Of a stretch of DNA of 64,000 nt, positions 26,649-34,415 are shown in pieces; the stretch's first letter is position 1, and each line of letters opens with the position of its first letter. Location of the stretch: positions 154,644 to 218,643 of the forward strand of contig NZ_QEAS01000004.1 of assembly GCF_003130405.1 (NCBI RefSeq). The letters run 5' to 3'. The position numbers and the translations under genes are program-made. This DNA is from Pararcticibacter amylolyticus. GTDB taxonomy: Bacteria; Bacteroidota; Bacteroidia; Sphingobacteriales; Sphingobacteriaceae. The notes under the pieces were generated by a model. That model saw only the letters and a list, made by a program, of their open reading frames with translations, was not told where the DNA came from and ran no database searches.

Positions 26649-27401
26649 TCAATGCTCGAGCCAGTTTTTAAAGGACGTTACTTTTAACCTGCTGACAATC
26701 ACCTTTTCAGGTGGTTTTATTTTAAGCTGTACTACTACTTTCCTGTTAAAGTAAGGTTCTATATTGAGAACTGCATCCTTGTTAACAAGCATCTGCCGGT
26801 TGACACGGAAGAACTGCCGGGGGTCGCAAACGGACTCTATATATTCCAGGTTTTTAAAGAGGGGCAACTGTTCGCCGGTAAATGTGAACAGATACACTGT
26901 TTCGAATTCTATGTAAAACAGGGCAATGTCTTTTACTTGTCTGACAATTGTTTTTTCCCGGAGTTGAGTCAGAAAGCTTTGCTGGTAACGCGTTTGGGGG
27001 AGCTGCTCCATTTGAAAAGGTCTCGTGTTTTTCGTTTGCAGAGCTGATGTGAGCTTTTTATATCTGGCAAGAGCTGCATGTATATCTTCTTCCCTGAATG
27101 GTTTAAGAATATAGTCTATCCCATTATTTTTGATTGCTTTTAAAGTGTATTCATCATATGCGGTACAGAAGACAACGGGAACGAATACATCTACATGTTT
27201 GAAAATCTCGAAACTGTGGCCATCGGCCAGCTGAATATCGAAGAACAACAAGTCGAGGTTCTGCTGGTATTTGCTGAGATAATACACAGCGTCGGCTACC
27301 GACTCCAGTTTTTCGACTGCCATGAAATCCTTGTCCTGCTCAATGATTTCCTGCAGGAGGCTTGCAGTGTGTGCTTCGTCTTCTACTATCAGTACGTTCA
27401 T
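26649..27401 (-). CDS. LytTR family response regulator of the ABC operon
   Basis: This 250-residue regulator has a receiver domain with VEDEA, the phospho-acceptor Asp55 in LLFFDIQLADG, and the Lys of ILKPFREEDI. A LytTR DNA-binding domain fills the C-terminal half (FYIEFETVYLFTFTGEQ, FFRVNRQMLVNKDAVLNIEPYF). Its start overlaps the kinase stop by 4 bases (ATGA type). It is the last gene of a nine-gene minus-strand operon. A 15-bp direct repeat with a 21-bp period upstream of the first gene fits a LytTR site, so it probably activates its own operon. Confidence 0.93.
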   Translation of the reverse strand: MNVLIVEDEAHTASLLQEIIEQDKDFMAVEKLESVADAVYYLSKYQQNLDLLFFDIQLADGHSFEIFKHVDVFVPVVFCTAYDEYTLKAIKNNGIDYILKPFREEDIHAALARYKKLTSALQTKNTRPFQMEQLPQTRYQQSFLTQLREKTIVRQVKDIALFYIEFETVYLFTFTGEQLPLFKNLEYIESVCDPRQFFRVNRQMLVNKDAVLNIEPYFNRKVVVQLKIKPPEKVIVSRLKVTSFKNWLEH

Positions 27402-28378
27402 GGCTGCATCAGTTTTAGCGTTACGGCAATGTGTTCTTCCTCTCTTGTTACTGTAACCCCGTCTTTTATCCCCAGAAGCTCATAACGCTTATTGAGGTTG
27501 TCGATACCATAACCTGACCTTTCCGTGATTTCGAGCTTGGGGTTCAGGTTGTTCTTTACCTCTACGCAGAAGTCCTCCGTTGTTCTTATTTCAATCCTCA
27601 AAGGGGTCCGGGCGGTCATTGAATTGTGCTTAAAGCAATTCTCTGCGACCACTTGTAAAGCAAGCATAGGAATGAGATAATGTTCCTTGTTGCTGTCTAT
27701 ATGCATGCTCACCGAGACTGCTGCCTGGTTACGGCTCTTCATCAGGAAGAGGAAGGATTGGAGTACCTTGATCTCTTCGTTTAGCGTCAGGGTGATGGCT
27801 TCATTGTATTTTAATGTCTGCCTGTAGAAGTCGGAGAGACTGAGAATAAACTGCTCTGACTGGGGATGACTGTGGCGGACCATGGTACGAAGAGTATTCA
27901 GCGAATTGAACAGGAAATGCGGGTCGACCTTTGAACGGAGGGCTTCGAGCTGTACTCTGTAGTTCTCCGTTTGGATCTGCTGCTTTTCCAGTTCAAGTAA
28001 GGCTACTTTCCTGTTGGCCCGGAATGCATACTGGATGATCAGGAAGGGAATGGTGGCAAGGAAATACTTGTAAATGAACATCCATTTCAGCGTATGTTTC
28101 TGAAAGAAAGGCGTAAATGAATAAATGCTGTATACGATGACAAAAAAGACCATGCAGGCAAGCAGTACCTTCAACCATTTGTACGTCTGCGCTTTTCTTG
28201 ATACAAAGTCGAGGATATGCCATAGGATATACAGCATGATGGAGATGCTGAGCCAGCGCCAAAACACGCCCATGCCCGAATCCTCAATTTTTTCAATACT
28301 CCTCATGGTGATCGCATTTAATACAGGCAGTATTAAACACAATACAACAGGTAGTATTTTATCTGCACGCCATTTCAT
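27398..28378 (-). CDS. LytS/YehU-type sensor histidine kinase of the ABC operon
   Basis: I place the start at the ATG at 28378 (MKWRADKILPVVLC, 326 residues); a TTG at 28390 is the alternative. Four membrane helices lie in the first 118 residues. A short coiled coil (LLELEKQQIQTENYRVQLEA) leads to the His_kinase motif with His154 in KVDPHFLFNSLNTLR. The ATPase part has ENCFKHNSM and the glycine box ERSGYGIDNLNKRY. It follows the cysteine-rich small gene by 18 bases and overlaps the regulator by 4. The signal may be envelope stress or the exported product, which cannot be decided here. Confidence 0.93.
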   Translation of the reverse strand: MKWRADKILPVVLCLILPVLNAITMRSIEKIEDSGMGVFWRWLSISIMLYILWHILDFVSRKAQTYKWLKVLLACMVFFVIVYSIYSFTPFFQKHTLKWMFIYKYFLATIPFLIIQYAFRANRKVALLELEKQQIQTENYRVQLEALRSKVDPHFLFNSLNTLRTMVRHSHPQSEQFILSLSDFYRQTLKYNEAITLTLNEEIKVLQSFLFLMKSRNQAAVSVSMHIDSNKEHYLIPMLALQVVAENCFKHNSMTARTPLRIEIRTTEDFCVEVKNNLNPKLEITERSGYGIDNLNKRYELLGIKDGVTVTREEEHIAVTLKLMQP

Positions 28379-28396: not shown

Positions 28397-28642
28397 TTAT
28401 TTCTTACGCGCTTCGCGGGACTGAAGCGACTTATATTTCAGATGGTCCCCGGTAGTGTCGGGTGGGGGATCGAAAGTATCTTCAAAGTATGAGCAACAAC
28501 AGGAAGGGCAATATTGGTAATGGCAGAGGCCGGTCTGGCAGAAGCAGGCTTCATAGTCGTCATAATAGCTGTAGGGGGCGAACATGCAGCTTAATAGCGG
28601 CAGCAGGGCGATGGCGAAACGTTGAATGAACGCATGACTCAT
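28397..28642 (-). CDS. Small cysteine-rich lipoprotein candidate
   Basis: This 81-residue gene starts with ATG 33 bases after the outer-membrane protein stop and ends 18 bases before the kinase start, so it fits the operon tightly. Residues 1-19 look like a lipoprotein signal (ALLPLLSC, Cys19 as lipidation site). The mature part has seven more cysteines at 33, 35, 40, 45, 48, 49 and 50, in a Tyr/Asp-rich setting that includes CPSCCC, followed by an acidic Pro-rich stretch and a basic C-terminus. I know no family with this pattern. It could bind metal, form disulfides, be a signalling lipoprotein, or be a substrate of the adjacent exporter. I cannot exclude a chance reading frame. Confidence 0.6.
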   Translation of the reverse strand: MSHAFIQRFAIALLPLLSCMFAPYSYYDDYEACFCQTGLCHYQYCPSCCCSYFEDTFDPPPDTTGDHLKYKSLQSREARKK

Positions 28643-28675
28643 ATTTTTATTCTTCTTTCGTTCTTGATAATGTCT

Positions 28676-29557
28676 TCATTTTAATTTAAAACTGTAGCTA
28701 ACGCTCAGGATGGTTCCCCTGGTTTTAACCTCTGCAGCCGGGGTACTCTTTTTCTTTATATCGAATGTGAAAATGCTCAGCGCCCGATCTTGCCCATCAT
28801 CATACAATCTAACGGTCTGGCGAAGGTTGTACCCGAGTCCAATAGAGATGAGATGCTGTTTTCGCAAGGTGAACCCAAGGCTGCTGAGACTGTACCACTG
28901 GTTGATGCGGATAAAACGGTTATTATTATCTAGGGCTGAAAGTCTGTAGCTACCGGCACTGCCTGATATTTCGCTGCTCAGAAATATGTTTTCGCTTAGT
29001 GCGTAAGTGAGTTTAGGCCGGATCGGGAGAAGTCCGGATAGCCGGAGCCTTGAGCTTATGTCGTATTCTATCGAGAAGAAGGGGTTAAGCTGATGTCCGA
29101 AATACTGGCGGCTATAGGCCATACCCCAGCCCGTTTGGAGTTTATCGTTGTGCCGCAAGACGTATCTGAAGCCTGCTGAATACCTAAAGTCCTCAGTACT
29201 CAGATCAATGAAATCCGAATAGAAGCCAAATTGACTGAAGAGATAGAATTGAGCGTTGTCTTTTATATTTTTCTGCCAGGACACATTCAGGTCGATGGAA
29301 TAGAGATGATGATCAAAATACTGGCCGGTATTACTGATCGTTTTGCTCCTGAACTGAATCCTTCCGCCAATTCTTTGTTTATCACCTTTGCTGATGGGGA
29401 AATTGAGATAAGCATTCAGGTTATCACTGTAACCTTTTATGCTGTCATTTTGCATTTTTTCACGGCTGTATTCCAGGCCTGCCATCTGGGCTGAGCGCTC
29501 CTGGGCAAAGGAGGACACGCTCACGAAGGTGAGGAGTAATATTATGCGGGTTTTCAT
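28676..29557 (-). CDS. Outer-membrane beta-barrel protein, DUF6268-like
   Basis: This 293-residue protein has a signal peptide ([19 protein letters not shown]) and many alternating aromatic/polar strands, for example FYLFSQFGFYSDFIDLS and LISIGLGYNLRQTVRLYDD, ending in LSVSYSFKLK with an aromatic near the C-terminus. This is the layout of a small outer-membrane barrel and resembles DUF6268 proteins. Its start overlaps the ABC ATPase stop by 4 bases, so it is part of the export operon. A role as an outer-membrane accessory of the transporter is inferred from that coupling. Confidence 0.75.
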   Translation of the reverse strand: MKTRIILLLTFVSVSSFAQERSAQMAGLEYSREKMQNDSIKGYSDNLNAYLNFPISKGDKQRIGGRIQFRSKTISNTGQYFDHHLYSIDLNVSWQKNIKDNAQFYLFSQFGFYSDFIDLSTEDFRYSAGFRYVLRHNDKLQTGWGMAYSRQYFGHQLNPFFSIEYDISSRLRLSGLLPIRPKLTYALSENIFLSSEISGSAGSYRLSALDNNNRFIRINQWYSLSSLGFTLRKQHLISIGLGYNLRQTVRLYDDGQDRALSIFTFDIKKKSTPAAEVKTRGTILSVSYSFKLK

Positions 29558-30234
29558 GGATGTTGTGCTATGATCCTGCCGTCTACCATTTCAATGATCC
29601 TGTCGCAGTTTGCCGCAAACTCGTCATCGTGGGTTACTGCGATAATTGTCTGATTCCTTTCGCGGGCAAGCTGACGGAAAATATTGAAGACCGTTTTTGT
29701 GTTTTTTGAATCGAGGTTGCCGGTAGGTTCATCTCCCATAATAATGGCCGGATCATTTATGAGAGCACGGGCAATGGCCACTCTCTGTTGCTGTCCACCG
29801 GAAATCATGGATGCCTTTTTATGCTCGTGCCCCCTGACGTCGAGCAGCGTAAGCAGATCAAGGGCTTTTTCCCGTATTTCTTCTTTCGGGCGCTTATTTA
29901 ATTTGAGTGCAGGAAGCATGACATTGTCAAGGACTGTAAATTCGGGGAGGAGATAATGAAACTGAAATACGAAACCGATGTGTTCATTCCTGAAAGTTGC
30001 CAGTTGATTTTGAGTCAGACCGGTCACGGTTGTTCCGTTGATGGCGATGCTTCCTGTGTAAGCGGTGTCAAGAGTGGAAAGAAGGTATAAAAGCGTGGAT
30101 TTCCCTGAACCCGATTTGCCGACAACTGATATGAATTCACCTCTTTTTACCTCGAAGCTTACTTCCTTGAGTACATGAAACTCCTGAGGATCATAAAAAT
30201 ACTTATTGATGTTTACTGCCGCTAATGATTGCAT
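29554..30234 (-). CDS. ABC transporter ATP-binding protein, MacB/LolD type
   Basis: This 226-residue ATPase has Walker A at 39-47 (GKSGSGKST), the Q-loop in [11 protein letters not shown], the signature [15 protein letters not shown], Walker [11 protein letters not shown] and the switch His in IAVTHDDEF. This pattern is that of the LolD/MacB/FtsE group, which powers mechanotransmission-type permeases. Its partner permease is the preceding gene, 30 bases upstream. The pair probably drives movement of a lipoprotein, peptide or hydrophobic compound away from the inner membrane. Confidence 0.95.
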
Positions 30235-30264: not shown

Positions 30265-31506
30265 TCAGCCTCTGAGAATAGCTACGGGATCCACTTCAGA
30301 TGCTTTTTTTGCCGGCAAATAGCCGGCGATGAACGTGATGATCAGTCCGAATACCAGGGCCATAACATAATCGAGTGGGATGTATGATATCGGGAGAGTG
30401 GTAAATGAAGCAATATGGAAGGGAATCCGATCGACGATAGCTGAAATAATAAATCCGGTGATCAGGCCGGTAAAACCTCCTATCAGACCAATAATGATCG
30501 ATTGTGTCAGGAAGATCTGGATGATATCTTTTCCATCGAATCCCATTGCTTTCAGAATGGCTATCTCTTTCATTTTTTCGTTTACCGTCATGTTCATGAT
30601 ATTATAGATTCCGAATCCGGCGACGATGAGGATGGTAAGGGAAACGGCTACCGCGATAATATCCCGCAGTGTATTGGCGGATTCGAGCTGAGCGTTGCCT
30701 TCCTGCCAGGGCTCTGTCTTATACTTTATATCGCCCTTTACTTCATCTGCTATCTTCCGGGCATCGTTATAATCCCGTACATTGGCCAATACCTCGGTAG
30801 CGTAACTTTTATTTTTTGAAAGAAGCTGGCGGGCGGATTGAATTGAGATCATTGCCCGTGATTTGTCGATACTGCCGGTGCCTGTTTCAATGATCCCCGT
30901 GATACGGAAGATTTTCGTTACACCATCGGAGGTGGTCAGTGTGATGTTATCACCGGTATACGCGCTGAGCCTGACTGCAAGTCCGCTGCCAAGTACAATA
31001 GCATCGGGGCGCTTATCGAGCTCGGTTAAATCTCCTTCCACCATATAGTCGTTCGTCCCGAACAGCCGCGGTTCGTTTGTCACGTCGATTCCCGACAGGG
31101 TTCCGTTCAGTTTGGCTACTCCATTGCGGAAAAACACATTCTGGTTTACCTGCTCGGTAACAGCGACAATGTTCTTATTAGACAGCAGGATGTTCTTTAT
31201 TTCATCAGCATTCCGGATGCCTTCCGTATAACTTATTTCCCTTGCATTACTGACGAACTGAATAGTATCGGAAGAAAGAGGCGGGGGAAGGAGGATGGGT
31301 GATTCTCCGTTGAGGTCATTGTATACCTTAATATGCGCCATTGAAGTAAAGGTGATATCGGTTTGAGCATTATTTACCCCATTCATGAAGCTGTTCATGA
31401 AAATGTACATGGAGATCCCGAAGACTACGGAGAGGACCGCGACAAACAGCTGCCTTAATTTTGAGGTCAGATGTACCCAGGATATTTTGTTATTGGTGCG
31501 GTTCAT
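30265..31506 (-). CDS. ABC transporter permease, MacB/LolE (FtsX-like) family
   Basis: This 413-residue permease has the four-helix type VII layout: one helix near 17-38 (LFVAVLSVVFGISMYIFMNSF), a large periplasmic domain (about 40-280), then three helices near 285-308, 335-360 and 380-402. The FtsX domain motif NEKMKEIAILKAMGFDGKDI is clear, and the C-terminus ends in PVAILRG, as usual. The start overlaps the membrane-fusion gene by 4 bases. With a fusion protein and TolC in the same operon it would form a MacAB-TolC-like tripartite system, here with separate ATPase and permease chains. Confidence 0.93.
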   Translation of the reverse strand: MNRTNNKISWVHLTSKLRQLFVAVLSVVFGISMYIFMNSFMNGVNNAQTDITFTSMAHIKVYNDLNGESPILLPPPLSSDTIQFVSNAREISYTEGIRNADEIKNILLSNKNIVAVTEQVNQNVFFRNGVAKLNGTLSGIDVTNEPRLFGTNDYMVEGDLTELDKRPDAIVLGSGLAVRLSAYTGDNITLTTSDGVTKIFRITGIIETGTGSIDKSRAMISIQSARQLLSKNKSYATEVLANVRDYNDARKIADEVKGDIKYKTEPWQEGNAQLESANTLRDIIAVAVSLTILIVAGFGIYNIMNMTVNEKMKEIAILKAMGFDGKDIIQIFLTQSIIIGLIGGFTGLITGFIISAIVDRIPFHIASFTTLPISYIPLDYVMALVFGLIITFIAGYLPAKKASEVDPVAILRG

Positions 31507-32606
31507 TTGCGGGGGGATTTAGCGGGCAGGAGAATCAGATCCTCTTCGGTAAGTCCGGATCTGACCTCTACCCATTTACCATACTTCTGTCCCAGGACGA
31601 TCTTTTTCTCCCCGCCATCCTGCAGCATGACATAATTCCCTCTTACGACAGCTTCCGTTGGGATCATCAATACGCCGGAACGATTTCCGAGCATGATATT
31701 CGCCTGTAGCTGAACTCCCGATAGCAGGGCAGGGGGAGATGTCTGGAAAACCCCTTTGATTACGCACGATTGTTGTTCAGTATCGAACGCTGGGAGTATT
31801 TCGGTGACACGGGCTTTGAAAACCGTATCCGGATAAGTATTCAGGTGCACCAATACAGATTGCCCCAGGGATATCTTCGTAATATCTTCTTCGGCTATGT
31901 ACATTTCCAGCCGGGGAGTTCCGCTGCTGATGCGTGCAATGACTTCTCCCTTGCGGACCAATTCGCCTTCTTTCTTATAGAGGTTTGTAATAGTACCTCC
32001 TTTGTCAGCCTTTATCTGGTAGTCAGCCAGCACAGACTGCTGTGCGTTTAGCTGCGACAGGCTTTTTTCTGCATTCAGCAGAAGTGCATTCCGGGCTTCC
32101 TGGTAGTTCTTTGTCAGCGAACGCAGGTTGTTCCGGGTTGTCTTGTACTGAAGCTCTGCTTTTTCAAATTCAAGTTGTGATGCTGAATTTTGGCGCAGGA
32201 GTGCATAATAGCGCTCATAGTTCTGCTTATCCTGGTCTAACTGTATTTCTGTTTGCCTGATCTGAATCTGAACCTGCTGAAGCGGAGGCGCGGAGGGTAG
32301 AGCATTCCGGCTTGCATCTTTGTAAACCAATTCAGCCTCTCTGGTTTGTGCAGTCTGGACATCGTTTTTGATCACGAACAATAGTTTTCCCGCGCCTACA
32401 TTATCTCCTTCTTTTACGGGAAGCTCAGTGATGATGCCGTCGAAATTGGCGGATACCATGTATTCGTTCTCCCTGACCACCTGGCCGCTGGCGAATACAG
32501 CCTGCTGGATGGTTTTTCTCTCCGGTTTTATTTTGTTGTTTTCGCTGCATGAAGTCAGAACAGCAATCAAAGACCACAACATCATTCCTTTTATTATTTT
32601 ATCCAT
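31503..32606 (-). CDS. Periplasmic membrane-fusion (adaptor) lipoprotein, HlyD/MacA type
   Basis: This 367-residue adaptor has a lipoprotein signal (WSLIAVLTSC, Cys20). A biotinyl-lipoyl half motif (ANFDGIITELPVKEGDNVGAGKLLF) and its second half (IKADKGGTITNLYKKEGELVRKG) flank a long helical hairpin (about 95-190), as in RND/MacA adaptors. Beta-barrel segments follow. It should link the ABC permease to the TolC channel. The short hydrophobic signal and the lipid anchor are typical of Bacteroidota adaptors. Confidence 0.93.
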   Translation of the reverse strand: MDKIIKGMMLWSLIAVLTSCSENNKIKPERKTIQQAVFASGQVVRENEYMVSANFDGIITELPVKEGDNVGAGKLLFVIKNDVQTAQTREAELVYKDASRNALPSAPPLQQVQIQIRQTEIQLDQDKQNYERYYALLRQNSASQLEFEKAELQYKTTRNNLRSLTKNYQEARNALLLNAEKSLSQLNAQQSVLADYQIKADKGGTITNLYKKEGELVRKGEVIARISSGTPRLEMYIAEEDITKISLGQSVLVHLNTYPDTVFKARVTEILPAFDTEQQSCVIKGVFQTSPPALLSGVQLQANIMLGNRSGVLMIPTEAVVRGNYVMLQDGGEKKIVLGQKYGKWVEVRSGLTEEDLILLPAKSPRK

Positions 32607-32642: not shown

Positions 32643-33947
32643 TTAGTTTCCGGTCGAAGCGCGGATATGTATTTTATAATAACTTATATAATAATCACTC
32701 AGGCTCTGCATATAGCGGCTCTGTGCGCTGAGCAAATCACCGAATTTATCCAGCCGTTCATCTGCGCCGATTATCCCGCTCTGGTACCTGTTGGCGGTAT
32801 GCCGGTCATTTGATTGCTGAAGGGAGAGGATTTCCTGCTGTGCCTGCAATTGTTCTTCCGCCTGCCTGTATTGAAGGTGCAGGGTTTCATCTTCTTTTGC
32901 GGCCGACAGGTTCCTGTTTTCCAGGAGCAGCTGTTCCTGGCTGAGGGCAAGTTTCGATTGCCGGCTCTTTTCTCTGACAGCGAAACCGTTGAAAACGGGT
33001 ATGCTGAGTTTTACAGCGAGGAATTGCTGCGGCAGGGTGTTCGTACTGGTGAAGTCGAACATTCTGTCTGTAGCCCAGTTGTAATTGTATTGATAACCTA
33101 TGGTTAGAGAAGGATAGCCGGCTGTTTTGACCTGCCGCAACTGAGCCTCTGCCAGTGCAAGTTGTGTTTCCTGCAACAGGACATCGGGATGCTGCTTCAG
33201 CGGAACAAGATCAGGAACAGGCCTGGTTACCAATTGCTCCGTAAGCCGGACGCCGCCGGGAAGATTGAGCTGTGCCTGCAACTGGTTATAGAGCTGGCTT
33301 AGCGAATATTCCCGGTTCCGGAGGTCGCTTGCTGCCTGTATCAGTTGCATGTTGGCGCGATTGAAGTTTTCTTCAGCGAATATTCCCTGGCGGAACTTGT
33401 CCTGTGTTGTTTCGCATATACTGCCGGTTGCCTGTACATTTTCCCTGGCAATGAGAATGTATTTTTCGGTCAGCAGGATGGAGTAATAGAGTTGTGCAAG
33501 CTGGTTATAAGTATCATACTTTATTTTAACGGTGGCTGCCTGGCTGGCTTTTTCCCGGGCTCCTGCGGTTTGAATTTCAAACCATTTTTGAAAATCGAGC
33601 ACATTCCAGCTTGCCTGGACACCGGTGTTGTAGATATACCGGCGTCCGAAGGTGTATTCGTTGAAAGTGCCTTCAGGAGCTGCCGGGTTGAACAGCGCGG
33701 CTGGCACCAGGGTAGGCTGCAGGGTGATATTATCGTTGAAGGCTGCCGAAGCATTAACCGAGGGAAGCAGAGATGTACGTGCTGCCTGGCTTTGTGAGTG
33801 ACTTATTTGTTCATCAATGCGGGCTTTGCGGATGCTGACAGCATTTTTGTCAGCATAGTCAAATACTTCCTGCAATGAGCCAAAAGTGACCTGGGCTTTG
33901 GCTGCTGAAACTGACAGAAAAAAGAGCAGGGCAATTATCTTTTTCAT
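32643..33947 (-). CDS. TolC family outer-membrane efflux protein
   Basis: This 434-residue protein has a signal peptide (MKKIIALLFFLSVSAAKAQ) and two OEP repeats, each with long amphipathic helices: SIRKARIDEQISHSQSQAARTSLLPSVNASAAF in the first, and HPDVLLQETQLALAEAQLRQVKTAGYPSLTIGY in the second. This is the standard TolC trimer-forming architecture. It lies 6 bases after the DUF2147 gene and 36 bases before the adaptor gene, so it is the outer-membrane exit of this export operon. Confidence 0.93.
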   Translation of the reverse strand: MKKIIALLFFLSVSAAKAQVTFGSLQEVFDYADKNAVSIRKARIDEQISHSQSQAARTSLLPSVNASAAFNDNITLQPTLVPAALFNPAAPEGTFNEYTFGRRYIYNTGVQASWNVLDFQKWFEIQTAGAREKASQAATVKIKYDTYNQLAQLYYSILLTEKYILIARENVQATGSICETTQDKFRQGIFAEENFNRANMQLIQAASDLRNREYSLSQLYNQLQAQLNLPGGVRLTEQLVTRPVPDLVPLKQHPDVLLQETQLALAEAQLRQVKTAGYPSLTIGYQYNYNWATDRMFDFTSTNTLPQQFLAVKLSIPVFNGFAVREKSRQSKLALSQEQLLLENRNLSAAKEDETLHLQYRQAEEQLQAQQEILSLQQSNDRHTANRYQSGIIGADERLDKFGDLLSAQSRYMQSLSDYYISYYKIHIRASTGN

Positions 33948-33953
33948 TAACTG

Positions 33954-34322
33954 CTATTTTACCCTGCTCCAGGTTTGTTTCCTGCTCATCATGCCGAAGG
34001 TTGCGGTTATTTCCAGCTTGTCGTCATTTACAAGTTTTGCAGTACACCTGGCAGTCTTACTTTTTTTTAAGACGTGCACTGTTCCGTTTTTAAAGGTGTT
34101 GATTCCGTCTTTTTGAAGAGACGTAATTTGTTTTTTGCCGGCCAGGCTCTCATCATTGGCCTGCCTGATGATGGCGTCGTATGCGTCGCCGTTCTTTACG
34201 AATTCTATTACCCGGCTTTTGTCTTCGTTGGTCCACTTGCCAAGAATCTTGTCGTTGTCTGTCTGAGCGAAAACACAGAAGCCGATGAAGAGGCTTACCG
34301 TGAGGATGATCATTTTCTGCAT
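33954..34322 (-). CDS. DUF2147 family exported small protein
   Basis: I place the start at the ATG at 34322 (MQKMIILTVSLFIGFCVFAQ, signal peptide; 122 residues); a further seven codons upstream are open. The mature protein begins with ILGKWTNEDKSRVIEF and ends with GMMSRKQTWSRVK, which fits DUF2147, a small lipocalin-like beta-barrel family, although shorter than most members. It is the first gene of the export operon. It could bind a hydrophobic ligand in the periplasm, which is inference from fold type. Confidence 0.8.
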   Translation of the reverse strand: MQKMIILTVSLFIGFCVFAQTDNDKILGKWTNEDKSRVIEFVKNGDAYDAIIRQANDESLAGKKQITSLQKDGINTFKNGTVHVLKKSKTARCTAKLVNDDKLEITATFGMMSRKQTWSRVK

Positions 34323-34340
34323 AGCGTTTGTCTTTTTTGA

Positions 34341-34415
34341 CAAATATGACCCGCAGAATCACGGACGGACAGTTTAAACAGGGTGAACTGAACAATTTGA
34401 AGGGTGAATTGAACA
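34341..34415 (-). promoter_or_regulatory. Candidate LytTR-controlled promoter of the ABC export operon
   Basis: Two copies of a 15-bp sequence, AGGGTGAACTGAACA (34380-34394) and AGGGTGAATTGAACA (34401-34415), differ at one base and have a 21-bp period. On the minus strand each contains TCAGTTCAC or TCAATTCAC, 8 of 9 and 7 of 9 positions of the published LytTR half-site pattern (TA)(AC)(CA)GTTN(AG)(TG). A CATATTTG -7-like box (34341-34348) lies 31 bp downstream, with no TTTG at the -33 position, as expected for an activator-dependent promoter. Confidence 0.6.

Follow-up and report, generated by a model that had tools for sequence, protein, structure and literature searches.

Within a 64,000-nucleotide stretch of the Pararcticibacter amylolyticus genome (hereafter the window), the minus-strand genes of a predicted tripartite exporter are separated at one point by a 297-bp gap, which an 81-codon open reading frame (ORF) nearly fills. 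The locus raises the question of whether this ORF encodes a protein and, if so, what a product with eight cysteines and eight tyrosines would do beside an exporter and its two-component system.

An 81-codon ORF nearly fills the largest gap of an exporter operon

The genes are given below in their minus-strand order, in which the DUF2147 gene is the probable first gene of the operon.

33954..34343, minus strand: DUF2147 protein, encoded 6 bp ahead of the TolC-like gene (PF09917)
32643..33947, minus strand: TolC-like outer-membrane factor (PF02321)
31503..32606, minus strand: HlyD/MacA-like periplasmic adaptor (PF16576, PF13437; RND_mfp above cut-off)
30265..31506, minus strand: MacB/LolE-like type VII ABC permease (PF12704 and PF02687; best NCBIfam match lolCE, below cut-off)
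29554..30234, minus strand: LolD/MacB-type exporter ATPase (PF00005; NCBIfam LolD below cut-off)
28676..29557, minus strand: DUF6268 outer-membrane beta-barrel-like protein (Pfam PF19783)
28397..28642, minus strand: 81-aa Cys/Tyr-rich putative mini-lipoprotein, ATG to stop (translation; rarity in gap shuffles)
27398..28378, minus strand: LytS-type sensor kinase, transmembrane helices at its N-terminus, start probably the ATG at 28378 (Pfam PF06580; translation)
26649..27401, minus strand: LytTR response regulator (Pfam PF00072 and PF04397)

TolC-like, MacA-like and MacB-like components were all found in this one operon (Pfam OEP, HlyD_D23/HlyD_3, MacB_PCD plus FtsX, ABC_tran), and the operon has the same G+C content as the rest of the window. 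From the TolC-like gene onward, neighbouring genes otherwise overlap by 4 bp or lie up to 36 bp apart. Because these junctions are so tight, a gene-free interval of 297 bp, the sole large one, between the upstream DUF6268 gene and the kinase gene would be out of place. DUF2147-like ORFs, recognized by sequence, also directly precede the TolC-like gene at three related loci (L173-L175), and a Pfam-confirmed DUF2147 gene follows the ATPase gene at L089.

The original prediction described an ORF of 81 codons with an ATG start, and such an ORF is present; it runs on the minus strand, which had been left unstated, from the ATG at 28642 to the stop at 28397, and the plus-strand frame of this interval is repeatedly interrupted by stops. 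The predicted flanks of 18-33 bases correspond to 33 bp towards the DUF6268 gene and 18 bp towards the kinase ATG; a longer version of the kinase ORF begins at TTG 28390. Directly before the 81-aa ORF lies a 10-residue frame, MKTLSRTKEE (window 28647-28679, minus strand, stop TAA), whose ATG overlaps the DUF6268 stop and which may be a chance frame or a coupling leader.

The full product, MSHAFIQRFAIALLPLLSCMFAPYSYYDDYEACFCQTGLCHYQYCPSCCCSYFEDTFDPPPDTTGDHLKYKSLQSREARKK, carries cysteines at positions 19, 33, 35, 40, 45, 48, 49 and 50, in agreement with the predicted Cys19 and seven cysteines within residues 33-50, CPSCCC included; its richness in tyrosine had gone unmentioned. Three parts were distinguished.

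28586..28642, minus strand: residues 1-19, a hydrophobic, signal-like segment that closes with Cys19 in a lipobox-like LLSC (sequence; hydropathy maximum; AlphaFold2 helix)
28484..28573, minus strand: residues 24-53, Cys/Tyr-rich core YSYYDDYEACFCQTGLCHYQYCPSCCCSYF, the best 25 residues of which hold 12 Cys+Tyr
28400..28483, minus strand: residues 54-81, acidic/proline stretch followed by a basic tail (REARKK) at the C-terminus (sequence; alignment)

By eye, LPLLSC makes a plausible, relaxed lipobox (MSHAFIQRF-AIALLPLL-SC), with a Leu that is uncommon at position -2.

Chance tests argue for a real small protein

When the 297-bp gap was shuffled with its dinucleotides preserved, 0.39% of the shuffles gave an ATG-initiated ORF of at least 81 codons, rising to 0.58% when GTG and TTG starts were allowed. 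The composition was rarer still: none of 20,000 gap shuffles reached 12 Cys+Tyr per 25 residues, the shuffle maximum being 8. The synonymous codon choice of the ORF lies at the 53rd percentile of real gene pieces from the genome, on a test that separates poorly, given that 15% of spurious ORFs score equally high.

We weighed these results against the possibility that the ORF is spurious or decaying in a non-coding gap. In its favor are a plain codon score that is low and inside the spurious-ORF range, the lack of any homologue by sequence, and a low-confidence fold (AlphaFold2 on the single sequence gave a mean pLDDT of 49.7 and only one helix, residues 4-20, itself of low confidence). However, the low codon score is explained by the unusual amino-acid make-up of the protein, its length and Cys+Tyr density are improbable by chance, it fits tightly within the operon, and the same layout and composition are encoded in orthologous operons, as described below. 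We therefore regard a spurious ORF as quite improbable and conclude that the 81-aa ORF is very probably a real small envelope protein of the exporter operon. The predicted envelope lipoprotein is in this respect upheld as an envelope-located operon member, and its lipid anchor as plausible on inspection by eye.

Orthologous operons encode Cys/Tyr-rich mini-proteins

A homologue search at the same operon position had been proposed together with the original prediction. Direct sequence searches with the 81-aa protein, covering 6 congeneric genomes, 401 genomes of the family and 84,980 GTDB genomes, yielded no real homologue, and five congeneric genomes gave no close match to either the permease or the peptide. 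The weak matches obtained were unconvincing as relatives, some containing internal stops, and one in its own genome (contig C75) corresponded to no matching small ORF. Neither Pfam nor NCBIfam models matched the protein, and a search of solved structures with it returned nothing. As handles for finding related operons, the DUF6268 barrel was found in 2 of 101 family genomes and the kinase retrieved distant paralogues only; an orthologue-like operon in genome G135 had neither barrel nor peptide.

Comparable peptides did emerge in the orthologous operons of other families, encoded elsewhere in the operon. Scanning with the permease gave 80 loci, the best of which, in Epilithonimonas, Chryseobacterium, Flavobacterium and Dyadobacter, were 73-75% identical to that of the window, and mapping the window operon proteins onto the loci revealed conserved operons with variable extra genes. 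At seven loci (L076-L080, L085 and L086), a protein of 52-72 aa is encoded between the permease and the ATPase, with an N-terminal hydrophobic segment followed by a Cys/Tyr-rich tail, as exemplified by the mini-protein of L080, MKKYFKEKFPREEVEFIMSILLLGVLALILGYYNYYCYYCYNYYCYYYPNSYECECYWYYDYYYGCY. The permeases of these peptide-bearing operons in Epilithonimonas, Chryseobacterium and Flavobacterium are 64-75% identical to that of the window. A Tyr-rich version with one Cys is present at L108 (Mesonia).

The combination of features proved selective. Of 14,031 ORFs drawn from 155 loci plus the window, the only small ones in which a hydrophobic segment precedes 25 residues with 12 or more Cys+Tyr were the window ORF (with re-fetched copies of it), the seven flavobacterial peptides and the L108 version. 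When the hydrophobic segment was not required, a single unrelated ORF attained 10 Cys+Tyr and a single one 11. Longer ORFs, of 200 aa or more, included just one, at L112, that also has 12 Cys+Tyr in 25 residues, so the density is rare yet not unique. The L112 ORF has 351 aa on the minus strand and begins MLGHLKPTTCGLPSISQRAYKNYYCSICASL, in a Microscilla locus brought in via the permease.

A profile of the seven peptides gave one good match per carrier genome, always at the operon, in 5 of 321 Weeksellaceae genomes and 1 of 399 sampled Flavobacteriaceae genomes. For flavobacterial pairs with measurable dS and moderate divergence, dN/dS was mostly 0.1-0.25 (dN and dS of 0.087/0.441 for L076/L077, 0.063/0.523 for L077/L079 and 0.295/1.213 for L085/L086), with higher ratios for L076/L079 (0.42) and for L078/L086 and L080/L086 (0.30-0.31); L078/L080 are near-identical and thus uninformative, and distant pairs are saturated. 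The flavobacterial peptides are under purifying selection, a measure that does not extend to the homologue-less window protein. Searched jointly, the nine peptides gave single weak Pfam matches only (E 0.04-0.39) and none in NCBIfam, and open-access literature searches for the peptide class or the operon type returned unrelated matches only. The class is without a Pfam or NCBIfam model and undescribed in the open-access papers searched.

Some related operons contain further genes. A Pfam-tested gene for a PagL-like lipid A 3-O-deacylase is present in L076 (L076:6256-7017), and PagL-like ORFs were recognized by sequence in L077, L146 and L172; the gene is flanked by those for the adaptor and the permease in L076, L077 and L172, and in L146 by those for the TolC-like protein and the adaptor. 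A secreted Tyr-rich DUF6515 protein is encoded between the ATPase and the barrel in L076 (L076:9201-9692, Pfam-tested) and, by sequence, in L078, L079 and L080. Upstream of a related exporter operon in genome G1192, a 334-aa ORF (L176:2867-3871, minus strand) shows CxHxxx hexapeptides repeated in long runs (ACSHTVSCQHKVTCSHTMNCQH...) and then xxHQFD repeats; it is possibly metal-binding.

The peptide accompanies the barrel, kinase and regulator

In a maximum-likelihood tree of 81 permeases, the window groups with L076-L081 with support of 100/99, and five of these six loci carry the peptide. Peptide presence on this tree requires at least four changes, which implies gain and loss, or repeated gain. 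A search of 222 Dyadobacter-group genomes found further permeases 73.6-76.5% identical to that of the window (L172-L174), in operons with neither kinase, regulator nor peptide. Since several related operons, including those of the closest other permeases, are without it, the pump core does not need the peptide.

The DUF6268 barrel, the kinase and the regulator occur in each of the nine operons that carry the peptide; five loci have these three genes and no peptide (L082, L084, L092, L095 and L175). The peptide is accordingly found in 9 of 14 operons with barrel, kinase and regulator against 0 of 71 others, counts that are phylogenetically non-independent and assume that no carrier was missed.

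The permease of Mucilaginibacter oryzae is 52% identical to that of the window, which is closer to flavobacterial and Dyadobacter-type permeases than to it; this suggests horizontal transfer. Four loci in the tree (L097, L106, L118 and L131) are labelled Pseudomonadota or Actinomycetota yet fall among Bacteroidota permeases, and are probably misbinned MAG contigs.

The window protein resembles the flavobacterial peptides in context and composition

The window protein and the Epilithonimonas, Chryseobacterium and Flavobacterium mini-proteins are alike in their small size, in an N-terminal hydrophobic anchor followed by a Cys/Tyr-rich segment (at least 12 Cys+Tyr in 25 residues), and in their location within orthologous MacB/LolE-like operons with a DUF6268 barrel, LytS kinase and LytTR regulator. 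Significant sequence similarity was not found between them: hhalign gave a probability of 1.6%, and of five shuffle tests against flavobacterial peptides, in which segment composition was preserved, four were non-significant. The fifth, with L086, gave p = 0.035 before correction for five comparisons, the common stretch being YxYCxxCCCxY.

They also differ in several respects. The flavobacterial genes lie between permease and ATPase, whereas the window ORF lies between barrel and kinase; the window anchor is lipobox-like, whereas the flavobacterial one is a transmembrane segment without a clear lipobox; and the flavobacterial peptides contain more Tyr and have no basic C-terminal tail, with no counterpart of residues 54-81 in the alignment. 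Given that homology is not demonstrable and that operon positions and anchors differ, we infer from context and composition that these proteins are equivalent in function, and claim no common family for them.

A candidate partner or cargo of a MacAB-TolC-like exporter

MacB-type pumps handle periplasmic substrates, and their superfamily includes the lipoprotein extractor LolCDE (PMC5985334). As in MacAB-TolC and PvdRT-OpmQ, the window operon combines TolC-like, HlyD/MacA-like, MacB/LolE-like and LolD-like components with a linked two-component system; unlike them, it has separate permease and ATPase genes, and it adds a DUF6268 barrel, a LytS/LytTR pair and, in a subset of such operons, a Cys/Tyr-rich mini-protein. 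With LolCDE it shares an ATPase and a permease that score best or near best on the LolD/LolCE models, together with a putative lipoprotein in the operon; unlike LolCDE, it has TolC-like and HlyD-like partners, and both proteins fall well below the NCBIfam cut-offs (254 of 308 bits for the ATPase, 156 of 362 for the permease). A further parallel is the heat-stable enterotoxin STII, a small disulfide-bonded protein exported by MacAB-TolC (PMC5985334). The window protein is likewise small, would likewise form disulfides and has a MacB-type pump nearby, whereas its putative lipid anchor sets it apart; the likeness is one of size, disulfides and pump type and does not imply toxin function.

We put at about an even chance that the 81-aa protein is a periplasm-facing dedicated partner or cargo of the MacAB-TolC-like exporter in an envelope-stress or antimicrobial-peptide response. 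It would be exported by Sec and probably lipidated at Cys19, and its Cys/Tyr-rich segment would face the oxidising periplasm or the cell surface. An operon-bound class of membrane-anchored Cys/Tyr-rich mini-proteins would thus accompany one subgroup of MacAB-TolC-like (type VII ABC) exporters, predicted to be regulated by the LytS/LytTR pair, and the pump may act from the periplasmic side on a lipid- or helix-anchored, disulfide-forming peptide. The MacB/LolE-like pump, the DUF6268 barrel and the PagL of related operons point to export and envelope remodelling, PagL in particular to envelope stress.

The original prediction also raised a redox input to the adjacent kinase and the binding of Cu, Zn or Cd, and specific support emerged for neither. 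As a signalling adaptor, the peptide would sense the periplasmic thiol/disulfide state or a ligand and signal to the LytS-type kinase controlling the operon. The ORF adjoins the kinase gene in the window, kinase and regulator occur in every peptide-bearing operon, and the closest pumps without these two also have no peptide. Nevertheless, flavobacterial peptide genes lie away from the kinase gene, the peptide is missing from many operons that do encode kinase and regulator (L082, L083, L087, L088 and L175), and no Cys position is conserved across the class, which leaves this role unlikely. Slightly less likely again is a lipoprotein whose CxC, CxxCCC and CP motifs would coordinate Cu, Zn, Cd or heme, with a pump that expels metal or porphyrin. 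Its dense cysteines with CxC and CxxCCC spacing fit such binding, and protoporphyrin export has been suggested for a MacAB (PMC5985334); however, what the related peptides retain is Tyr and not a set arrangement of Cys (L108 has one Cys), cysteines outside the cytoplasm would tend to oxidise, and no metal-handling or metal-resistance gene was found among the operon proteins by Pfam or NCBIfam.

A bacteriocin- or pheromone-like role, with a Cys-rich peptide secreted through the pump and produced under the two-component system, would be consistent with a small, fast-evolving, Cys-rich product beside an exporter and a LytTR system, with STII as the MacAB precedent. We consider it improbable, given that Pfam and NCBIfam returned no leader or bacteriocin family match, that no modification enzyme was found among the scanned operon proteins and that the anchors suggest retention at the membrane. 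A cargo or pump partner ranks first, ahead of kinase input and then metal binding, the sequence alone being compatible with a cargo, a structural accessory or a sensory input.

More tentatively, a subgroup of Bacteroidota MacB/LolE-like exporters might own tiny anchored peptides that are kept for their Cys/Tyr content over their exact sequence; these might be cross-linkable, through disulfides or dityrosine, and displayed or expelled by the pump in envelope stress. We hold this broader picture to be doubtful at present. Little is known of what MacB-type pumps in Bacteroidota naturally transport or of the small proteins that work with them, and an operon-encoded small protein with equivalents in several genera offers a direct candidate for testing.
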